The translations under genes and the position numbers were made by a program. Under the pieces are notes generated by a model. The model did no database searches. It was not told the origin of the DNA and was given only the letters and a program-made list of their open reading frames with translations. A stretch of DNA of 32,114 bases from a virus, in IMG/VR virus record IMGVR_UViG_3300031141_000025, positions 1 through 32,114 of that record; one strand, given 5' to 3'. Below are positions 1,045 through 31,796 of the stretch, one piece after another (position 1 is the first letter of the stretch; every line of letters begins with the position of its first letter).

Positions 1045-1409
1045 AAGCTATTGTCGTGTTTTGCAACGTAGAAGGTAAAGGTCATCCATTAGGATGGATG
1101 CTTAAGGATGGGTTTAAACATTGCTTTATTAATTTGCAAACCGATAACGGGTGGGTAGAGTTTGACTACCGGATAGGAATTCCGCTTGTTCGTGTTATGG
1201 CTGCATCGGATTTTGATCTCAACAGCTACTACCGAGATTTAGGGTTTACTACTGTTGAGACAGAACAGGCTAAATGTATCAAGTTTGGCATTAATCTGTT
1301 CTGTGGTACAATAACAGTAGCTAATTGTGTCGGTTTGGTCAAAGCTCTTTTGGGCGTTAAATACTTTTCAGTAACACCTTATCAACTTTACAAGAGACTT
1401 ATAAAATGA
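1041..1409 (+). CDS. Probable permuted NlpC/P60-like (papain-fold) phage protein
   Basis: 122 residues. A His sits in a predicted beta strand (GFKHCFINL, His27), and a Cys begins a predicted helix late in the protein (ANCVGLVKALLGV, Cys96), followed by TPYQLYKRLI. The order His then Cys is that of circularly permuted papain-fold proteins; the ordinary NlpC/P60 order is Cys then His. Proteins with the same CVGxVKxLLG...TPyqLY ending are common near portal genes of marine phages and are usually left as hypothetical. The family resemblance is from memory; the permuted-peptidase reading is inferred. If active it could cut peptidoglycan or an amide bond. If not, it may be a structural papain fold. 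The ATGA overlaps at both ends place it firmly in the operon. Confidence 0.7.
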   Translation: MKAIVVFCNVEGKGHPLGWMLKDGFKHCFINLQTDNGWVEFDYRIGIPLVRVMAASDFDLNSYYRDLGFTTVETEQAKCIKFGINLFCGTITVANCVGLVKALLGVKYFSVTPYQLYKRLIK

Positions 1410-1639
1410 ATATATTTCCCGGCTTCGGCGGTGGCCCCGGTGCTCCGCCCCCACTTCCGCCTCCATTGCCTCCTCCAGTTGCTCGGGCTGATCCGGCTGT
1501 TGAACAGGCTAAATTAGATTTAAAAAACAGTGTGGCGAAACGCAGAGGTCGTGCGGGTTCTATACTAACTCAAAACAAGTCCACTGGTGGTAGTATTCTA
1601 AACGAATCTGCAACTGGTGAAGAAGGGAACTTAGGATAA
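1406..1639 (+). CDS. Proline-rich RRGRAGS small phage protein, copy 1
   Basis: 77 residues. The N-terminus is MNIFPGFGGG, then a proline-rich stretch (APPPLPPPLPPPV), a short helical part, and a C-terminal KRRGRAGSILTQ motif. Short proteins with a Pro-rich front and an RRGRAxSILT-type end are frequent just upstream of podovirus portal genes; their function is not known to me. The start overlaps the previous stop (ATGA at 1406). It is paralogous to the next gene, sharing the Pro tract and RRGRAGS, and shares its first eight residues with the protein at 575. Confidence 0.75.
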   Translation: MNIFPGFGGGPGAPPPLPPPLPPPVARADPAVEQAKLDLKNSVAKRRGRAGSILTQNKSTGGSILNESATGEEGNLG

Positions 1640-1641
1640 TT

Positions 1642-1884
1642 ATGAAAAACCTTTGTATAATACCGGGCGGTGGGTCACCACCTCCCAGACCCCCTCCTCC
1701 GCCCCCGCCACCGCCTCCACCGCCTCCTCCGCCTCCACCTCCTGTGGAAACGAAGCAGTCGAATAAAGAGGTGTTGGCTCGTCGCAGAGGCCGTGCTGGA
1801 TCTCAGTTATCAGGATCTTCGTCCGGTGGTTTAGGAACATCAAGCGAGACGGGCGGAAATATAACCACTAAGAAACTAGGTTAA
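1642..1884 (+). CDS. Proline-rich RRGRAGS small phage protein, copy 2 (18 consecutive Pro)
   Basis: 80 residues. After a short N-terminus (MKNLCIIPGGG) the codons give SPPPR and then 18 uninterrupted prolines, encoded by a mixture of all four Pro codons. A charged segment follows, then LARRRGRAGSQLSGSS and a Gly/Ser-rich tail. It is a tandem paralogue of the protein at 1406. A run this long stalls bacterial ribosomes unless elongation factor P acts, so output may depend on the host factor. The portal gene begins three bases after its stop, so stalling here could also affect portal translation; that is an inference. Confidence 0.75.
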   Translation: MKNLCIIPGGGSPPPRPPPPPPPPPPPPPPPPPPVETKQSNKEVLARRRGRAGSQLSGSSSGGLGTSSETGGNITTKKLG

Positions 1885-13080: not shown

Positions 13081-15480
13081 ATGACAGCTCTCCCAGAAAT
13101 TACACAAGGCCGACCAAATCCGGTACACCGTAACCGAAACGTCAATTCGCCGGTAGAGGTACAGCCTAATAATACAGGCTTTGTAGCATCTAACGTAAAA
13201 CGCAATGTCACGTCCAATTTAAAAGGGCCGGGGGATGCGCTCGTTAAAGCTGGATCGAGAATAATGGACATATCCGACGATTATCAGGCCGCCGCTGACG
13301 CTGAGTATAATGCCCGACTAAAAATGGAAGGCGATCAAGCCGATGACGACATGGCAGAATATTTAGCTCAATACAAAAATGACTCCGCTGCTGATATCGA
13401 AGCGTCGGACTTAAGTACGGAAGAAGGCATCGAAGAGTACACAACAAGAGTCGCCCGTACAAATGAAAAGTTTAGCGGAAAAATGGACGGCAGTGTGAAC
13501 CGGCATCGTTACAATTCTAAACTGGAGATCGCCGCACTTTCATCCGATACCACGGCTAACAAAAGTATTGGAGTGATTAGAGACACTAAAAATAGTGAGC
13601 GCGCCACGAACGATGGAATGAGTTATATAGCAGAATTCCCCTTGGGGTCGAAGGTTTCACAAATGATGGATGGGATCTTTGAGCGTGTTCACACGTCTGG
13701 CGGAGCCTTGGAAGCTAATAAGAAAACGACGATATTCACGACTCTGGTGAGGCAGGCTTTGACACAGCGTCTGAAATATCTCAGCCGCCAGTACGCTGAC
13801 CCAGCCGATCTGGAAGCTTTTTTGAGTGACCCCCTCACCCGAAGTTATATGAGCAAGGGGCTACTGGACGCAGCACAAGTGGGGAAGGAGGAACAAGCTA
13901 ATATACGATTTGACAACTCCCCAGAAGGGCGAAAATTCAAAGCTAATAATAAGTTCTACGAGGGCGCGCCAAAGGCTAAAGATTACCCGAGTGTTGAGTT
14001 ATACGTACACGACTTATCGATGTACTACAGGGCGCATGAAAGAGCTATCCCCGAACACATTTTGACCCCCGGCTCCACAGTAAATGTCGCCGGTACTACA
14101 GTGGGAGAGGGTAAGGATCGTCCCCCTGTTACTAATGTTGTCCCAGAGGGTTCCACGTTGGCTAAAACTCCAATTGATGGCAAGAGTGTCGGTGAAACTA
14201 CATTCCAAACCCCAAATCCACGGGTGAACGTAAGCTTTAAAAATGGAGACGGATCATTAACATCCGCCGCAGTCGATGATCTACGCACTGGCGCACAGGG
14301 TCTTATACCAGAGAGCAGTGACATAAACGGTAGCAAACAGGGTTTTACAGACTTAGAGACAGCATATATGTCGGATGTAGAACTGAAGGCGAATGAGATA
14401 CTACTTGCTGATACGGGTAGAATGACCCCGAAGCAGGCGCTGGCGGAGGCGGAGAGACTAATTCCTAATAAGCCCGAGAAATACGATTTTTATAAGGCGG
14501 GGCATCGTGCATTTAACAACGCTCCAAATTTGGAATCACCACCATTTAAAACTACGCCTGACGGTATAAAAGAATTCGCCGCTGGGTTTGACCAAGATGC
14601 TTCAGAGTTAACTCTGATGCTTACGGGGATGAAGGATGCCAATGGAGATCCTCTGGACTTAAGTAAAGCTACTGACCTTTTCTCAGCCGTGCAGTCGGGA
14701 TTTAACACGGTTCTGGGAACATTCAGTGACTCTCTAGTTCATAAAGAAACTGAAGAAGCCCGAATGAATTTAGCACTCTTAGCACGAGACTTTATCAGAC
14801 TGTTTAGTTTAAACCCCCGCTTTGTGGTAAAGGAGCAGATAATTCTTGCCAAGATATTCTCTGATCCATCCATATGGACAAACCATGCAAAAGCGAAAGT
14901 TGCGATTGCTACTTTTAGAACCCAGCTAGAGAGTCGAAGTAACGCGGAACTAGGTAAACTAACGGGGTTCCGCCCATTGGACGAGAAAAACCTTGCAGTA
15001 GATACTCTGGCAATTCTCGGACGTATCCATAGGCGCATGAAACGCTTTGAAGATGGTGATGTAAATTCAACCTTACCAGTACCCGGGGGTAGTCTAAACG
15101 ATAACGAAAACGCAATTAATGATCTAAATCCTGACGACCTAACAGAAGAACAGGCAATTCTATATGGGTTTCAAGATCGCAAATCTGAAGGCGCATCGGT
15201 TACTCCGCCGAGCAACCCGAAAGACGTAGCTCCCGCGAGGATTACGCCGCCTAGAAAAGCCCAAACGAGCACTGGGGATGAAACCCTTGATGTAATAAAT
15301 GCCGCCAATAACGGAAATATGACGTCGCTAAAAGACTTTAATATTCCCGCGCTCATAGAAGCGCTGTCGGACGGAACGCTTTCGGATGATACTCGACAGG
15401 AAATTCGAGGCGCTCTCGCACTTTTTAAAGACTTCACAGTAGCACAAATTAATGATGCTGACATAACGAAACGGAAATAA
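13081..15480 (+). CDS. Large internal virion protein (T7 gp15-like position)
   Basis: 799 residues, largely helical and hydrophilic. The N-terminus (MTALPEITQGRPNPVHRNRN) is flexible; next a helix with DYQAAADAEYNARLKMEGDQADDDMAEYL, as often seen at the front of phage ejection proteins. Low-complexity linkers appear near residues 340-400 and 690-760 (Pro/Thr/Asp-rich). No enzymatic motif is apparent. Position between the gp14-like protein and a still larger internal protein suggests it is part of the ejected channel. The family call rests on gene order, size and composition, not on a specific motif. Confidence 0.65.
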   Translation: MTALPEITQGRPNPVHRNRNVNSPVEVQPNNTGFVASNVKRNVTSNLKGPGDALVKAGSRIMDISDDYQAAADAEYNARLKMEGDQADDDMAEYLAQYKNDSAADIEASDLSTEEGIEEYTTRVARTNEKFSGKMDGSVNRHRYNSKLEIAALSSDTTANKSIGVIRDTKNSERATNDGMSYIAEFPLGSKVSQMMDGIFERVHTSGGALEANKKTTIFTTLVRQALTQRLKYLSRQYADPADLEAFLSDPLTRSYMSKGLLDAAQVGKEEQANIRFDNSPEGRKFKANNKFYEGAPKAKDYPSVELYVHDLSMYYRAHERAIPEHILTPGSTVNVAGTTVGEGKDRPPVTNVVPEGSTLAKTPIDGKSVGETTFQTPNPRVNVSFKNGDGSLTSAAVDDLRTGAQGLIPESSDINGSKQGFTDLETAYMSDVELKANEILLADTGRMTPKQALAEAERLIPNKPEKYDFYKAGHRAFNNAPNLESPPFKTTPDGIKEFAAGFDQDASELTLMLTGMKDANGDPLDLSKATDLFSAVQSGFNTVLGTFSDSLVHKETEEARMNLALLARDFIRLFSLNPRFVVKEQIILAKIFSDPSIWTNHAKAKVAIATFRTQLESRSNAELGKLTGFRPLDEKNLAVDTLAILGRIHRRMKRFEDGDVNSTLPVPGGSLNDNENAINDLNPDDLTEEQAILYGFQDRKSEGASVTPPSNPKDVAPARITPPRKAQTSTGDETLDVINAANNGNMTSLKDFNIPALIEALSDGTLSDDTRQEIRGALALFKDFTVAQINDADITKRK

Positions 15481-18400
15481 ATGACGACTCTCCCCGGTAA
15501 ACAAACAGCGGTTAAACCTACTCAAGACTCAGTTCCCGAGGAAGTATTTCCAAAGGCTCCCGTGCAGAATACGGCTACACCCGCTCCTATGCAGGAAGAG
15601 GTTACACCTGCCCCTATGCAGGAAGAGGTTACACCTGCCCCTATGCAGGAAGAGGTTACACCTACCCCTATGCAAGAGGTTGATCCCCTACCGCTGGATG
15701 TTCAACCAGCCCCCGATTCAGACGTTGATGCAACAATAAGTTTAGAGAAGAAAGCCAGTCCACAAGCAGTCGCCCGATTAAAGCGTAAGCAATCTGCTAT
15801 TCGCGCTCGCGTAGATCGTGAAAAAACATTGCAAATACGCCGGGACAGACATCAAGCTAAAAAAGAAGAAATCGCTATAAATAGAATTGAACGTTATCGA
15901 TCCGGCATAAACTCGGTGTTTCTTGACATTCTAGACTTGCCGGGTGATGCAGTAAGCGCAATATTAAATCAACTGCTGTTCCCGCCCACCCCGGGGGAAG
16001 GTAGACCTGACGGGCCTATCCCCTCTGGCGGATTCAGAGAGATGAGCAGGTTCTTGGGCGCGTACGCGGACAAACTACCTGATGGGTTTATACAGAGTTT
16101 TTTAGGCAATATGGGACTGGAAGCTCCCGCCGAGGATGTGTTTGGAAATGTGGGAACGCAAGAACGCTCAGAAGAATTTGAAGATGGGCGCATGATGGGC
16201 GAAGGGCTGGTTTTTAGCCTTCTTTCACCCGGATTAGCGGCTCTTAAAGTCCCAAAGTGGGGGCCGATATCTAATATCACGAAAATAAAACGCTTTTTCA
16301 AAAGCACCGGCGAGTTAGCTGTGGCACACCCTCTGCAAACTATTACTGTGGAAACAATCGCAACAGGTACGGCTGCCGTAGGTTTACGCATTGGGAAGAA
16401 CAAGTACCCAGATTCCGTAGCAGCGCAGTTTATAATGGGTATGATGGGGGGAAGTACCGCAACTCTGTTACCTTTAAGAACTATATATGGCACGGGCAAA
16501 CAGCTTGGGGGAAGTTTCTTAGACGCATGGGGGTCGCCTGCCGCGCTTAGAAACGCCCAGAAACAATTACAAAAACGTGTAGGGTCTGCGGAGGATTTAG
16601 AAGCAGGGCTAAAACGCCTTGAAAAAGGCGATCAAGGGGAAGACGCCCCCGGATTTTATAAACTTCTTTCTCCTGCGGAGCGTACCGAGTTAAAAGCCGC
16701 AATCAATTTTCAGACGGCTTTCTTTAGAGACGAAGAAACTAGACAGCTAGGGGAGTTTGCCCGATGGCGGCAGATGCATGATCTTCTCATTGAGATAGGT
16801 AGAACTCCCGCAGTTAAAAAAGATCTGCCGGTAGGATCAGTTATCGCAGATGAACTAAACAAAATCAATATATTATTAGAATCCCGTTTAAGTACGGTGA
16901 TGATGAAACTCTTAAAACAGGCCAACGATTTAAAAGCCACTATGTCGCCTAAAATGGCGAATATCTACGCCAAAGAGCTAATACTAGAAGAGTTAGAGAT
17001 TGCTGAAAACTCTTTGAAGATTTTATGGAAACGGGTTGACATGAAAGTGGATTCTCCCACATCAGCCGCTACGTCTACATTTAAGAGACTACTACAGGAA
17101 GTTGAAAGAGAAGAAGGTCGAACTTTATTTAAATTAGGCAACGAAGACGCCGGTGGGGATCTGCACAAATTTCTAGGGTATTGGAAAACTATCCCCGCAG
17201 TAAAAGCTATAAAGGCTAAAAAGGCTGTCCCGGCGAGTGGGCTGTTTGGGTCTAAACAACAAAAGGCTCAAAAGGCCGTCAAGGGTAGAAAAGCGGTAAA
17301 GGCCAAAAATGTGTGGGTAAAAGGTGAGTGGGGCGATCAAGTATCGCTTTCAAGACAACAGGGACTGCGCTCGAGAATATTACAAATTGTTAGGGAAGAG
17401 CGAACGGCTCTTGCCCCTAATATGAGAAGAATATCACTACTAAATGACTTAGCGGAATCTATGTTGCACGGAATGGGGGGAGCTAAAGGCGCGGTATCTA
17501 AAAATAAAGACTACTTAACCGCCTTAAGAGCTACACGGGCAGTGAAAGAGCGGTTCGCTGATAAACCCATAGCAGACATTCTTCGCGTGAACCGCAATGG
17601 TGACAAAGTCCCACCGAGCCTTACCCTTGAGAATATATTCACTGGTGCAGGAAAAGGCGGAGCTGCACAAGGGCAGGCTATATTTGAAAGGATATTAAAA
17701 TCTCTCGAGGGAGGGTCGCCAGATGCGCCGGTAGAATTAATAGGCGCCGCAGAGCAGTTGATAAAATACCGAGTTAATCGTGAGGTCATTAGCAACGGTA
17801 AGGTTGATGTATCCGCAGCCGAGGAATTTCTAAAAACCCACGCCACGTTGATGGATACCCCGGCGCTTAGGAGTATCAGAGACGACATAGAAGAGCTTGT
17901 GAAAAGCGGAAACATAGTTGAGTTTAAACGCCTGAAAAACGTTCAGCTAACCAAACAAGTAAACGATCCTAAATTGTCAATGGCGGCTTTTTATGTCGGG
18001 AATGGGCCAGCATTATCGTTTAAGAAAATACAAAACACCTTCGACCCAAAAATGGTAGATGCTATGATAGTAGATCTACTGGATAAAGTGAAAACTAACC
18101 CTGAAGCAAAAGACGGGTTAGATGGTCACTTATTTTTATGGATGCTGGATCAGGCAAAGGTCAAACAGACCATGAACTTGGAAACTCCTGAGATTATATC
18201 GGGAGCAACACTGGAAAGCCTGTGGAACACTAAAAACGTTCAGAAGATGGGGAAAGCAATATTCTCGCCAGAGCGCCGGGACATGATGGAAAAAGTAATT
18301 ACGTCGGCTAAAAAGCTGGACGTAATCCTACACGCCCACGCCTCTAAGGGCGGAACCTTTGACCTTACCCCTAATGTGCTAATTGAACGAATATTGAGGT

Positions 18401-27449: not shown

Positions 27450-27485
27450 AGCCGCGTAAGGATTCGTCCTTGCGCGGCTTTTTTT
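27450..27485 (+). terminator. Very strong rho-independent terminator
   Basis: AGCCGCGTAAGGA (27450-27462) pairs with TCCTTGCGCGGCT (27467-27479) through a TTCG loop, giving a 13-pair stem with a single G-T wobble, followed by seven T. It ends the fibre and lysis transcription unit and separates it from the amidase and replication genes. Confidence 0.93.
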
Positions 27486-28446: not shown

Positions 28447-28802
28447 AGAATAAAATTCTATTTGCGCTAGTGTTAGCGTTTGTGCTAGAGTTGTCTTTGA
28501 GTTCAGCAGGAGAAATCACCAACTGGGAACCCGTTCAAGACCGTAACATGGTTGTTACAGTAAGAACGATTGATAAAGATGGGGTACATGAAATCCAATA
28601 TAAATATCACATGAGATCCAACCCCGTGCGAGTCCACCCGTGTGACGAAGTACAACACTTCCCAGAGCTGAACGAAATATGGTTGACAACTCAGGAGGCA
28701 AGGCCGCATATGTATATAATCAGCAACAACTACAACGCATACAAACCGGAGGGTCAAGACAATTGGATAGGAGTTGATTCCGACGGACAGGATATCAGAT
28801 GA
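28443..28802 (+). CDS. Secreted or periplasmic small protein
   Basis: 119 residues from GTG 28443 (GTGA overlap). A classic signal peptide opens it: MKNKILFALVLAFVLELSLS, with cleavage likely after SSA. The mature part (~97 residues) is polar: NMVVTVRTIDKDGVHEIQYKYHM, one Cys (HPCDEV), then IWLTTQEARPHMYIISNNYNAY and a Gly/Asp-rich end. No family recognised. A phage protein sent to the periplasm next to the endolysin could serve in lysis or in exclusion of other phages; both are guesses. Its TGA overlaps the dCTP deaminase ATG. Confidence 0.7.
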   Translation: MKNKILFALVLAFVLELSLSSAGEITNWEPVQDRNMVVTVRTIDKDGVHEIQYKYHMRSNPVRVHPCDEVQHFPELNEIWLTTQEARPHMYIISNNYNAYKPEGQDNWIGVDSDGQDIR

Positions 28803-29335
28803 TATTGTCCGACTTTGAAATTGAGCAAGAGCGCATGATCGAGCCTTTTGAGCACGGGAAGAAGGGATCTCCTAGCTACGGGCTAAGTTCATATGGATAT
28901 GATATACGTTTGGGTGAGGAGTTCATCGAGTACACCACAAACTATCCGGGGGATTTAGACCCTCGTAACCCCGGCGCGATGCGTGAAGGAAAACACTACT
29001 CTAAGCGACAAACTTCAGATACCCTAGTGCTACCCGCTGGTGGGTTCATATTAGGCCACAGCGTGGAGGTTCTAACGATGCCCCATGATGTAGTAGCTAT
29101 GGTAAAAGATAAATCAACTTATGCTAGACTCGGCGTGACCGTACAGAACACTGTACTGGAACCCGGATGGACAGGTCAAATAACTTTAGAAATAACTAAC
29201 CATAATTCGAGACCTGTGATACTATTAGTTGGTGAAGGAATAGCACAACTTATGTTTTGGAAAGGTAAGCCGTGTATGACACCCTATGGAGACGGTAAAT
29301 ACCAAGATCAAACTGGCGTAGTACTGCCAAGATAA
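28799..29335 (+). CDS. dcd: dCTP deaminase
   Basis: 178 residues with the family motifs in order: SSYGYDIRLG (31-39), KDKSTYARLGV (103-113, Ser106 and Arg110 at active-site positions), LEPGWTGQITLEITN (120-134, catalytic Glu131), EGIAQLMF, and KYQDQTG at the end. It converts dCTP to dUTP in the soluble pool, giving dUMP for dTTP synthesis; some relatives are bifunctional and also hydrolyse dUTP, which cannot be decided here. It starts in an ATGA overlap. Phages carry it to raise the thymidine nucleotide supply during replication, or for uracil-derived DNA if other genes exist outside the window. Confidence 0.93.
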   Translation: MILSDFEIEQERMIEPFEHGKKGSPSYGLSSYGYDIRLGEEFIEYTTNYPGDLDPRNPGAMREGKHYSKRQTSDTLVLPAGGFILGHSVEVLTMPHDVVAMVKDKSTYARLGVTVQNTVLEPGWTGQITLEITNHNSRPVILLVGEGIAQLMFWKGKPCMTPYGDGKYQDQTGVVLPR

Positions 29336-29468
29336 CCGCGCCTTGTTTTTCATCGAATCAGCCGGTGTCGTGTTGGGCGCATAAATACGACACGATTTCA
29401 TTGGGGTCGACGGGGGACGACTAGCTGATAATCCCCCAATCCTTTAAAATACAAAACAGGAGAATATA
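29336..29468 (+). promoter_or_regulatory. Structured non-coding gap before the replication genes
   Basis: 133 bases without a gene in a region where genes otherwise overlap. It has two inverted repeats: GTGTCGT (29365-29371) with ACGACAC (29387-29393), and ATTGGGG (29400-29406) with CCCCAAT (29434-29440), the second enclosing a GTCG/CGAC pair. Between them AAATACGAC (29383-29391) resembles the front of a T7-class promoter but lacks its CTATAGGG part. A TAAAAT at 29445 has no -35 partner. The next gene has CAGGAGAA before its ATG. Promoter, operator or attenuator are all possible. Confidence 0.4.
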
Positions 29469-29933
29469 ATGGCGACCAAGGATGTCAAGGCGAAGGTAAA
29501 AAAGCCGAAGGTGAAGGCTGATGCACCCGTAAAAGAGAAAGAAACTTTGGAAGACCGTCTTACACTGGCATACTATATGTTAGCGGGGGTAGTTGACAAG
29601 AACACACAGTGTATGGCAGCCCTTCTCACTGCACTGGAGATGGCGGCGGAAACACAAGCGCAAAATGCCACCCACCTAAAAGTAGTTCCCCCACCGCAGG
29701 AACCAATCCCAATTAAATCCGTTATAGACCCTGTAGATGAAGTAGATAAATTACACGTCTACACCGTATCCGAATGCCAAAAAGTATTGTTAGGTGTAGG
29801 AGGTGCTAAAGGTAAAGAGACAGCGTTCGAACTTCTCAAAAAGTATGGGGCTGAAAGAATCAGCGAATTATCACCTGCGGATTTCCATTTGTTCGTCGAG
29901 GATGGAAACAAGATTATAGAAGGTGAACTATGA
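29469..29933 (+). CDS. Hypothetical protein before the nuclease gene
   Basis: 154 residues. The front is Lys-rich (MATKDVKAKVKKPKVKADAPVKEK), then a helix LTLAYYMLAGVVDKNTQCMAALLTAL, a proline linker (VVPPPQEPIPIK), and a C-terminal helical domain (VYTVSECQKVLLGVGGAKGKETAFELLKKYGAERISELSPADFHLFVE). That last part resembles small helical domains found in phage proteins next to recombination nucleases; I cannot name it. It overlaps the nuclease gene (ATGA), suggesting a common function, perhaps a DNA-binding cofactor. Confidence 0.7.
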   Translation: MATKDVKAKVKKPKVKADAPVKEKETLEDRLTLAYYMLAGVVDKNTQCMAALLTALEMAAETQAQNATHLKVVPPPQEPIPIKSVIDPVDEVDKLHVYTVSECQKVLLGVGGAKGKETAFELLKKYGAERISELSPADFHLFVEDGNKIIEGEL

Positions 29934-31138
29934 CCGAACTAGCACACGCGAAGTTATCAGCCAGTGGATCACATAGATGGATAACGTGTCCGGGGTCAGT
30001 TACCTTGGAAAGCGACCTACCTGACACAACATCCGAGTTCGCAGAGTATGGTACAGCCGGACACACGCTTGCACAGATGTGTCTGGAAAATGTATGTCCA
30101 GCTCTATCTTACAAAGGACAGAAACTCAACGTCTCTGACAATTACCCCGAGGGTTTTGCAGTTGATGATGAGATGATTGAAGCCGTCCAACAGTATCTAG
30201 ATTACTGTAACGGTCTAGCAGGGCAGCATGAGTTCATCGAACATCGAGTTGACTTTTCTAACTGGGTTCCAGAAGGATTTGGCACATCGGATTATATAAA
30301 GCTCGACAAGAATGCCGACTGCCAGATCATCCACTGCGTTGACTTAAAGATGGGTAAAGGGGTAAGAGTCTTTGCTGATAGTAACCCGCAGGGTATGTTA
30401 TACGCTCTGGGTATACTAAACACAATGGACATGGCTTTTGATTTTCGTGATGAGGATCTCGTTAACATCGTAATTGTACAACCTCGCTTGGATCATATCG
30501 ATGAATGGATGACAACCGTTGGCGAACTTAAGACGTGGGCGCAAGATGTAGTGTCTCCTGCGGCTAACAAAGCGTGGGCGGGAGAGTTAGAATTCCATCC
30601 GGGGGACAAGCAGTGCAAGTTCTGCAAAGCGAAGTCTTCTTGTAAAGCTCTTGCGGAACATAGCATTGAGGCAGTATCAAAGATATTTCATCCTTTACCC
30701 GAGGTAGAGATTGATCTCAAGGAAGCCCACGCGCTTACTAACGAAGAAATCGGTAAATTAATACCATTAACCGATGGCATTATTGACTGGTGCAAGGCGT
30801 TACAAAGCTACGCATTCAACCTGATGGAAGGCGGTACGACTATCCCCGGCTACAAGTTAGTGCAAGGTAGAGCGGGAAATAGAAAGTGGGTTGACGAAGC
30901 CGAAGTGAGTATGCTATTATCCAAAAATCAATTTGGGGATGAAGATATATTTCAGCCTCGTAAGTTGTTAACTCCGCCAAATATGGTGAAGTTACTCAAG
31001 GTCGCCGGAGAGTCCGACGATCTTATTTCTAATCTTTGGGTTCAGCCCAGAGGTAAACGTACAATGGCGACGAACAGTGACCCAAGGGATGAGATTATCC
31101 CAGAGCCACAGGTCGAGTTCAGATCCATTGAACCTTAA
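29930..31138 (+). CDS. DUF2800 nuclease (RecB/Cas4-like PD-(D/E)XK exonuclease)
   Basis: 402 residues. The order is that of the DUF2800 family: LSASGSHRWITCPGSV (Cys20), YGTAGHTLA (His45), GFGTSDYIKL (Asp121), HCVDLKMGKG (Asp138, Lys140), the QGMLYALG motif (Gln154, Tyr158), and QCKFCKAKSSCKALA (Cys229, 232, 238). One early and three late Cys are arranged as in Cas4/AddB proteins, where they hold an iron-sulfur cluster. It likely degrades DNA 5' or 3' ends in recombination or host DNA breakdown. The C-terminal ~150 residues are a separate helical region. The DUF2815 gene follows, the usual partner. Confidence 0.87.
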   Translation: MTELAHAKLSASGSHRWITCPGSVTLESDLPDTTSEFAEYGTAGHTLAQMCLENVCPALSYKGQKLNVSDNYPEGFAVDDEMIEAVQQYLDYCNGLAGQHEFIEHRVDFSNWVPEGFGTSDYIKLDKNADCQIIHCVDLKMGKGVRVFADSNPQGMLYALGILNTMDMAFDFRDEDLVNIVIVQPRLDHIDEWMTTVGELKTWAQDVVSPAANKAWAGELEFHPGDKQCKFCKAKSSCKALAEHSIEAVSKIFHPLPEVEIDLKEAHALTNEEIGKLIPLTDGIIDWCKALQSYAFNLMEGGTTIPGYKLVQGRAGNRKWVDEAEVSMLLSKNQFGDEDIFQPRKLLTPPNMVKLLKVAGESDDLISNLWVQPRGKRTMATNSDPRDEIIPEPQVEFRSIEP

Positions 31139-31154
31139 AACTGGAGAAGACTTT

Positions 31155-31796
31155 ATGTCTACTAACGAAGAGCAGTTGCGCGAAAAGATGACGATCAATA
31201 TGAACGACCACACCCGCCCGGTGCGTATCTCCTACGCGAAGATTTTCGACAAGGAAAAGAACGACCTGTCAGGCAACATGGAATACTCTGCGATGTTTCT
31301 CATCGATAAGAGTGATACCAAGACAGTGAAGCAGGTCAAGGATGCCATCCATTCCGCGATGACCTTGAAATGGGGAGCTGAAACACCTAACGGGGTTCGT
31401 ATTCCGTTGCGTGACGGCGACAAGTCCGGGCCAACCGGCGTCCCATCTGGAGCAACACCCGGAGAAGCTCCTTACGGAGGTCACTTCTTCATCAACGCAA
31501 AGAACACCACTGATGCGGGGCCAGCCCTGTGGGATCAGCAAGGTGCATTATCCCGCGAGTTTGATAAGGGGAAGATTGCATCAGGGGACTACGTTCTATG
31601 CGCGTTGAACACATATGCTTATGATAACAAATCCAAAGGCGTTGGGTTTGGTCTTCAAGGCGTTCAGCTTGTTAGAAAAGGGGAAGCTCTCGGCAACTCC
31701 TTCGACGGCTCGAAAGTGTTCGGCAAAATCCCAGTAGCAGCAGATGTCCAAGGTGCAGACGCAGTATCTGTAGACTTTGACAAGATGATGGGTTAA
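31155..31796 (+). CDS. DUF2815 single-strand DNA-binding protein
   Basis: 213 residues from ATG 31155 behind GGAGA; an in-frame ATG at 31077 overlaps the nuclease gene and is rejected. RPVRISYAKIFDKEKNDLSG, then YSAMFLIDKSDTKTVKQVKDAI, YGGHFFINAKNTT and ISG-like KIASGDYVLCALNTYAYDNKSKGVGFGLQGVQLVRKGE match DUF2815, a phage OB-fold family related to T7 gp2.5. It should coat single-stranded DNA at forks and recombination sites. Codon use and GC seem higher at the start than in neighbours. The C-terminus is acidic (SVDFDKMMG), as in SSB proteins that bind partners. Confidence 0.87.
   Translation: MSTNEEQLREKMTINMNDHTRPVRISYAKIFDKEKNDLSGNMEYSAMFLIDKSDTKTVKQVKDAIHSAMTLKWGAETPNGVRIPLRDGDKSGPTGVPSGATPGEAPYGGHFFINAKNTTDAGPALWDQQGALSREFDKGKIASGDYVLCALNTYAYDNKSKGVGFGLQGVQLVRKGEALGNSFDGSKVFGKIPVAADVQGADAVSVDFDKMMG

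Follow-up and report, generated by a model that had tools for sequence, protein, structure and literature searches.

What does the long non-coding gap ahead of the replication genes of this virus encode? The window, by which we mean the whole stretch of DNA analysed, is a linear virus fragment of 32,114 bases that runs, as judged by eye, from the end of a terminase-like gene to the start of a DNA polymerase-like gene. The best phage matches of its portal gene were Pelagibacter phages at only ~32% identity, so that a close cultured relative was not found. The gap (29336-29468, 133 nt) is bounded by the stop codon of a dCTP deaminase gene at 29335 and the start codon of a 154-aa gene at 29469, and these flanks bear out the preliminary description of the locus, which had called the gap non-coding. 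The same description had reported paired inverted repeats and a T7-promoter-like core, and had offered a phage promoter, an operator, a replication start or an attenuator or leader of the early operon as possible readings.

A search with the capsid protein retrieved related contigs, among them G004 (52,290 bases), whose DUF2800 gene is 62% identical to that of the window and in which the gap sequence recurs before the replication genes (L094:2692-2855). A profile built from the two DUF2800 sequences led to G028 (53,417 bases, IMGVR_UViG_3300032278_000010), with the element at L100:2494-2626. Aligned over the gap, G004 is identical to the window at 96/132 bases and G028 at 80/129 bases. DNA identities for the window-G004 and window-G028 pairs were 73% and 62% for the element, 61% and 56% for DUF2800, 59% and 60% for the ssDNA-binding protein (SSB) gene, 69% and 66% for the amidase, and 52% and 49% for the phrog_408-like gene; between the window and G004, the 73% of the element stands against 51-69% for five neighbouring genes. 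On these figures, the non-coding element is kept better than the neighbouring genes, except for the amidase in the window-G028 comparison.

Several features of these contigs were recorded along the way. G028 has a minus-strand half (~5145-28990) with an N4-like RNA polymerase, an ATPase and a family-A DNA polymerase, and a plus-strand part (~36000-52000) with fibre (by eye), lysis and replication genes like those of the window, plus a second family-A DNA polymerase. Because its minus-strand half is unlike the window, G028 is either a mosaic phage or a chimeric assembly; under both readings, the element's own region is syntenic with the window. Downstream of the element in G004 (L094:7193-9491 and 14415-16583), family matches were found to ribose-phosphate pyrophosphokinase and nicotinamide phosphoribosyltransferase, and also to an RtcB-type tRNA ligase and an RNA ligase. 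An array of 20 tRNA genes at ~7.6-10.6 kb (7 in L095:7632-8721 and 13 in L291:85-1587) shares the phage with two RNA ligase-type genes, and ~20 copies of a 15-base tandem repeat lie near the contig end (L094:18461-18768). Just before the portal gene of the window (1406-1884), two adjacent small genes have, by eye, long proline runs and similar C-terminal stretches, and a similar gene is seen by eye at 14743-14985 of G004.

The element and its surroundings in the window are as follows.

27450 to 27479, plus strand: intrinsic-terminator-like site with a 13-pair stem and a T-run; the RNA lies ~1.9 kb downstream.
29336 to 29437, plus strand: predicted structured RNA core of ~102 nt, built of three hairpins plus three pseudoknots and conserved also in G004 and G028.
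29438 to 29457, plus strand: spacer between the fold and the Shine-Dalgarno sequence, carrying UUUAAAA (from the sequence).
29458 to 29462, plus strand: Shine-Dalgarno sequence AGGAG of the downstream gene (from the sequence); GGAGA is kept in 3/3 sequences.
29469 to 29933, plus strand: first downstream gene, phrog_408-like by a weak family match (E 0.0002), function not assigned.
29930 to 31138, plus strand: DUF2800/exonuclease-family gene, by family match.
31155 to 31796, plus strand: gene of an Enc34/gp2.5-type SSB, the candidate repressor; its start codon was picked by comparison.

The same order is found in 3/3 contigs: a terminator-like site, lysis-type and small secreted-type genes, the element, and then the phrog_408-like, DUF2800 and SSB genes. 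The terminator-like sites of G004 (L094:1075-1098) and G028 (L100:1263-1284) lie, like that of the window, before the lysis genes; the scan of the window called 4 sites in total, near the shuffled mean of 3.0. The phrog_408-like match is stronger in the relatives (E 2e-5 in G004 and 2e-7 in G028), and the SSB of G004 was recognised by its 58% identity to that of the window. In all three phages, the stop codon of the phrog_408-like gene overlaps the DUF2800 start as ATGA, while the SSB start follows closely behind the preceding gene with a Shine-Dalgarno sequence of its own. Counted from the element, the SSB gene comes third in the window and G028 but fourth in G004, where an extra 121-aa gene follows the RNA element. 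The dCTP deaminase gene (28799-29335) directly precedes the element in the window only, a small secreted-type gene taking this place in G004 and G028. With the deaminase present only before the window element and the 121-aa gene only after that of G004, the element has persisted while its neighbours changed. In the window and G004 it starts just past the stop codon of the previous gene; in G028 it overlaps this codon.

Comparison of the three sequences points to six helices, three of them hairpins (Pa, P2 and P3) and three of them pseudoknot pairings (PK1, PKa and PK2). Their positions in the window, with the support for each, are listed below.

29338 to 29342, plus strand: PK1 5' strand GCGCC, predicted to pair with GGCGC of loop 2 (29376-29380); 3/3 sequences. 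Once one loop base is moved in G028, its outer pair is U-A instead of G-C; the other four pairs are invariant.
29351 to 29367, plus strand: predicted hairpin Pa, CATCG/CGGTG with a 7-nt loop, arms at 29351-29355 and 29363-29367; 3/3 sequences, 2 double-change pairs.
29357 to 29362, plus strand: PKa 5' strand ATCAGC in loop a, predicted to pair with GCTGAT (29424-29429); 17/18 cells, one cell being unpaired in G004, with 3 double-change pairs.
29368 to 29395, plus strand: predicted hairpin P2, TCGTGTTG/CGACACGA, whose loop holds GGCGC (PK1) and the A-rich AUAAAUA; 3/3 sequences, 3 double-change pairs.
29405 to 29422, plus strand: predicted hairpin P3, (G)GTCG/CGAC(T) with loop ACGGGGGA, arms at 29405-29409 and 29418-29422; 3/3 sequences after one gap move in G028, 3 double-change pairs including the outermost one (G-U/A-U/C-G).
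29412 to 29417, plus strand: PK2 5' strand GGGGGA in loop 3, predicted to pair with TCCCCC (29432-29437); 3/3 sequences after one gap move in G028, 2 double-change pairs.

Over the window, G004 and G028 (n = 3), the six helices comprise 35 pairs with 104/105 cells paired and 14 pairs changed on both sides, which are the compensatory changes that the preliminary description had proposed to look for; these figures hold after three gap moves (one nucleotide in G028 each for P3 and PK2, one loop base for the outer pair of PK1), which lie in unconserved stretches and were guided by the pairing itself. In the untouched MAFFT alignment, PK1 (4 pairs), Pa, PKa and P2 together pair in 68/69 cells (98.6%) with 8 double-change pairs, each value being reached by 0/500 shuffles, and when the partners are slid by 1-3 columns pairing falls to 25-53%. 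All six helices in the same alignment reach 95.2% of cells paired and 10 double-change pairs (0/500 shuffles). One of the five measures, that of further pair types, was not above shuffles (179/500 for four helices and 66/500 for six). After the three gap moves, five helices with 4 or more pairs carry two or more double changes each, the maximum in 2000 column shuffles being 3; with no gap moved there are three such helices, a number reached by 4/2000 column shuffles, and this unadjusted alignment supports Pa, P2 and PKa. Counted over helices with 4 or more pairs, double changes number 13 on the plus strand vs 7 on the reverse complement. Since the latter supports the pairs less well, the working form is the plus-strand RNA.

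When run unguided, RNAalifold drew Pa, P2 and PK2 but not PK1, PKa or P3; a further helix in its output, reaching the ribosome site, was rejected by us. Minimum free energy folds of the three sequences mixed true and competing stems, and enumeration of helices with a tolerance of 2 columns found 39 with at least two double changes vs a shuffle mean of 34.6 and a maximum of 59. A first hand alignment, in which the G028 anchors were misplaced, had given four helices that have 4 or more pairs and carry a double change (4/1000 shuffles as high) and two helices with at least two double changes (14/1000 shuffles), and was superseded. The single-strand RNA fold of the gap has a z of -1.06, with 26/200 shuffles as good; the lone fold is thus not unusually stable, and the inverted repeats by themselves proved little. 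Pseudoknots are invisible to such single-sequence folding. Taking the comparative evidence together, it is very probable that positions 29336-29437 encode a conserved structured RNA.

The hairpins Pa, P2 and P3 are consecutive, and the pairing partner of each loop lies outside the hairpin to which the loop belongs. For loop 2 this partner is the 5' tail; loops a and 3 both reach into the 3' tail, loop a to the strand just past P3 and loop 3 to the last C-run. As predicted from the three sequences, the plus-strand RNA consists of three interlocked H-type pseudoknots. In each hairpin, one stem strand runs into a pseudoknot strand with no intervening base, and such direct continuation is the classic H-type layout. 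The A-rich third loops of pseudoknots often sit in a neighbouring groove. The A-rich part of loop 2 is AUAAAUA in the window and CUUAAAUA in G028, and AUAAAUA as a third pseudoknot loop would explain the conserved AAAT that had been taken for the front of a promoter. Loop 2 differs in length (window, 12 nt; G028, 13 nt; G004, 37 nt). Invariant bases include AAAT within this loop, AC within loop 3 and UU behind PK1.

Both inverted repeats of the preliminary description are present in the window (I1, GTGTCGTGTT/AATACGACAC; I3, ATTGGGG/CCCCAAT), but neither is the pairing that was conserved. The first was drawn in the wrong register, the conserved stem being TCGTGTTG/CGACACGA (29368-29375/29388-29395); the second, GC-rich one is not conserved, and the pairing kept there is GGGGGA/TCCCCC (29412-29417/29432-29437). 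Helices PK1, Pa, PKa and P3 were absent from that description.

A covariance model of the three sequences (R1) gave bit scores of 146, 134.6 and 132.3 for the sequences from which it was built, which shows only that all three fit one model. Among 48 whole records, R1 had matches at E<=1 in 4 and strong ones in 3, with no further strong match; we regarded three weak places (E 0.09-0.5) as chance matches. Further loci (52, 80 and 24 sources) held no other strong match. By R1, the element was found in none of the 11 loci of a DUF2800 scan (27-38% identity), and a scan of dCTP deaminase homologues did not find it. Two of the 35 loci of an amidase scan are G004 and G028, and the best R1 match in the other 33 (E 0.22, L241) lies in an apparent coding region, judged by eye. 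R1 on 80 capsid-gene loci reached at best E 0.31, and it found nothing in 24 loci from a genome scan (best E 7), all of which were also read by eye. DNA similarity searches against 50,697 phage records used two queries from the window (2 kb and 146 nt) and one from G028 (133 nt). Over the element, they gave nothing other than short matches at chance level, the best having an E of 0.4 and none covering more than 24% of the query.

One pattern scan gave, beside G004, two matches (L096 and L097) that are chance occurrences in coding sequence. In another pattern scan there were at least 119 stretches; 118 loci were scanned with a loose descriptor that would miss diverged copies, and only the G028 locus (L124) was judged real, so more homologues may exist. 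The loose four-helix descriptor matched 59 places in a reversed control of 3,985,222 bases, a few of them being the reversed true element, which means that pairing alone is not diagnostic; requiring six helices left one chance match (L008) beside the true loci among those scanned. Against Rfam 15, the window had no match at the gathering cut-off and three sub-cut-off matches at E<=10, the best being PreQ1 at 12.2 bits (cut-off 39, E 7); G028 had no match at E<=10, and G004 only one on the opposite strand, outside the fold and starting at the downstream gene (E 0.28). Such an element was not found in the open-licence literature, among the matches listed.

While the structure is the well-supported part of our reading, the function is inferred from position and analogy. 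The element would be a cis-acting leader that sets the translation and/or stability of the phrog_408-like/DUF2800/SSB mRNA. In this model, a protein encoded by the operon, SSB being the foremost candidate, would attach to the knot and extend from it across the spacer and the ribosome site; shutting off the first gene would then silence the rest via the ATGA-coupled junction. The distance from the fold end to the AUG is 31 nt in the window, 29 nt in G004 and 24 nt in G028; with the fold ending 24-31 nt before the AUG, the Shine-Dalgarno sequence is not itself covered by it. We consider cis control of the downstream operon probable, whereas SSB autoregulation in particular, which is suggested by analogy, is doubtful. 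Taken as a whole, the cis-acting leader is the best explanation, and we give it about an even chance. Two of the earlier guesses, an operator and an early-operon leader, agree with what was found, namely a conserved structured RNA immediately before the replication genes.

A DNA element, that is a phage promoter, a repressor site or a hairpin-extruding replication origin, could be suspected from the inverted repeats, the location before the replication genes and the N4-like RNA polymerase of G028. The core AAATACGAC noticed earlier is indeed present, at 29383-29391; comparison with G004 and G028 places it in the A-rich pseudoknot loop and the beginning of the P2 3' strand. A T7-type promoter is not supported. 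AATACGAC occurs once in the window, with 0.99 occurrences expected by chance, so that the second copy sought is missing. With up to 3 mismatches, the 17-nt T7 promoter consensus had 0 sites in the window, G004 and G028, the T7 control giving 16. The surroundings of the core are not kept between the relatives either: AAATACG is retained in G028 and followed by GTACGG vs ACACGA in the window, G004 has AAATGCG, and as DNA the core and its continuation (G028 AAATACGGTACGGG, G004 AAATGCGACACAGG, window AAATACGACACGAT) are not conserved. A search for a single-subunit RNA polymerase (PF00940) found none in the window, which is a fragment, or in G004, the T7 control being positive; the polymerase of G028 is a diverged N4-like one of 583 aa, ~22 kb from the element, on the opposite strand and in the contig part unlike the window. 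Promoter-like sites were seen directly before the element in G028 (9/12 matches, L100:2459-2487) and after the fold in the window (10/12 matches, 29443-29470), such matches occurring overall at about the chance number; directly before the element, the window and G004 have none. A replication start is at odds with the compensatory pattern, which is that of a plus-strand RNA: pairs are kept via G-U intermediates, the plus strand scores above its complement, and 3/6 helices are crossing pairs. In our opinion, a DNA element is highly improbable here. Attenuation at a conserved intrinsic terminator is not supported either: plus-strand scans (loops of 3-8 only, P2 being beyond reach) called none in the element, and no U-run is conserved behind any stem, G028 alone having, by eye, GUUUUU after P2.

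Other functions of a structured RNA have to be weighed as well. The element could be a riboswitch, a knotted aptamer that controls the replication operon in response to a small molecule changing in infection, such as a nucleotide, an NAD precursor or an amino acid. A compact multi-pseudoknot leader near a ribosome site, with invariant AAAT, AC and UU, would suit this role, G004 has the phosphoribosyl-pyrophosphate and nicotinamide-salvage genes downstream, and riboswitches are reported from some marine phages (PMC9004378). However, Rfam gave no match above noise in the window, G004 or G028, invariant unpaired bases are few, and neither the Shine-Dalgarno sequence nor any conserved terminator is part of the fold; we regard a riboswitch as unlikely. 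It is just as unlikely that the RNA is a device for stability or processing, whose pseudoknot-locked ends would block 5' or 3' exonucleases or guide a cleavage that parts lysis-gene from replication-gene mRNA. Such a role would fit tails that both pair with domain loops, and also the setting within a same-strand gene series, ~1.9 kb past a terminator-like site. In the window and G004, moreover, no promoter-like site immediately precedes the element, which begins right after a stop codon there and overlaps it in G028. Against it, G028 does have a promoter-like site there (9/12, near the chance number for such sites), the exonuclease-resistant RNAs that we know of come from eukaryotic RNA viruses, and no such RNA from a phage was seen among the matches listed in the open-licence literature. 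Finally, the nascent RNA could act like put, binding the host RNA polymerase to allow read-through of terminators in the replication operon. The put RNAs of HK022 are structured cis elements that act without phage proteins (PMC9378689), and no phage polymerase was found in the window fragment or G004; on the other hand, put consists of two stem-loops downstream of early promoters, whereas three pseudoknots are predicted here with no promoter established nearby, and we regard this as quite improbable.

Returning to the cis-acting leader, we describe the element as a structured phage leader RNA whose architecture is not known to us from any described family. It is possible, albeit tentative, that it represents a new class of phage regulatory RNA, a stand-alone switch that senses a replication protein or a metabolite and times the DNA-replication module in a group of uncultured phages. 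To our knowledge, regulatory pseudoknots have rarely been described in DNA phages. With a triple-pseudoknot leader conserved among uncultured phages, a second case of different structure would be at hand, in which the switching of replication genes by a phage could be tested. Such a leader would further demonstrate that an RNA of this kind can escape single-sequence folding as well as Rfam searches, and that two relatives are enough to reveal it.

Among known systems, flavivirus-type exonuclease-resistant RNAs are similar in that a hairpin loop pairs downstream and closes a knot; they belong to a different virus realm, and the similarity was compared through Rfam searches alone. Like manA, wcaG and other marine-phage RNA motifs, the element is a structured leader RNA (PMC2864571), but no Rfam model matches it. 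The STAXI motif is also a pseudoknot RNA near genes of ssDNA-binding proteins; it has two or three copies of a single pseudoknot, whereas the three pseudoknots here are different, interlocked and not repeats (PMC2864571). With HK022 put, the element shares the nature of a structured cis RNA in a phage early-type transcript; put is a ~70-nt element of two stem-loops downstream of early promoters with no trio of pseudoknots (PMC9378689).

An analogy for the proposed mechanism is offered by gene 32 of T4, where the SSB recognises a pseudoknot operator and spreads over a less structured, UUAAA-rich ribosome site (PMC535899, PMC3014915). As in the T4/RB69 gene 32 operator, a phage pseudoknot RNA lies here upstream of a spacer and ribosome site in an operon of replication proteins, and its 5' end may extend into the reading frame before it, as happens in G028 (PMC535899, PMC3014915). 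The spacer motif UUUAAA is found in the window and G028 and is absent in G004. Of the features typical of T4 gene 32, covariation points to a pseudoknot 5' of the ribosome site, whereas the SSB gene is not directly downstream. The T4 operator is a single pseudoknot of ~28 nt before ssb itself; the RNA described here spans ~102 nt, has three predicted pseudoknots and precedes another gene, with ssb third or fourth in the operon and encoding an Enc34/gp2.5-type protein whose binding to the knot is putative.
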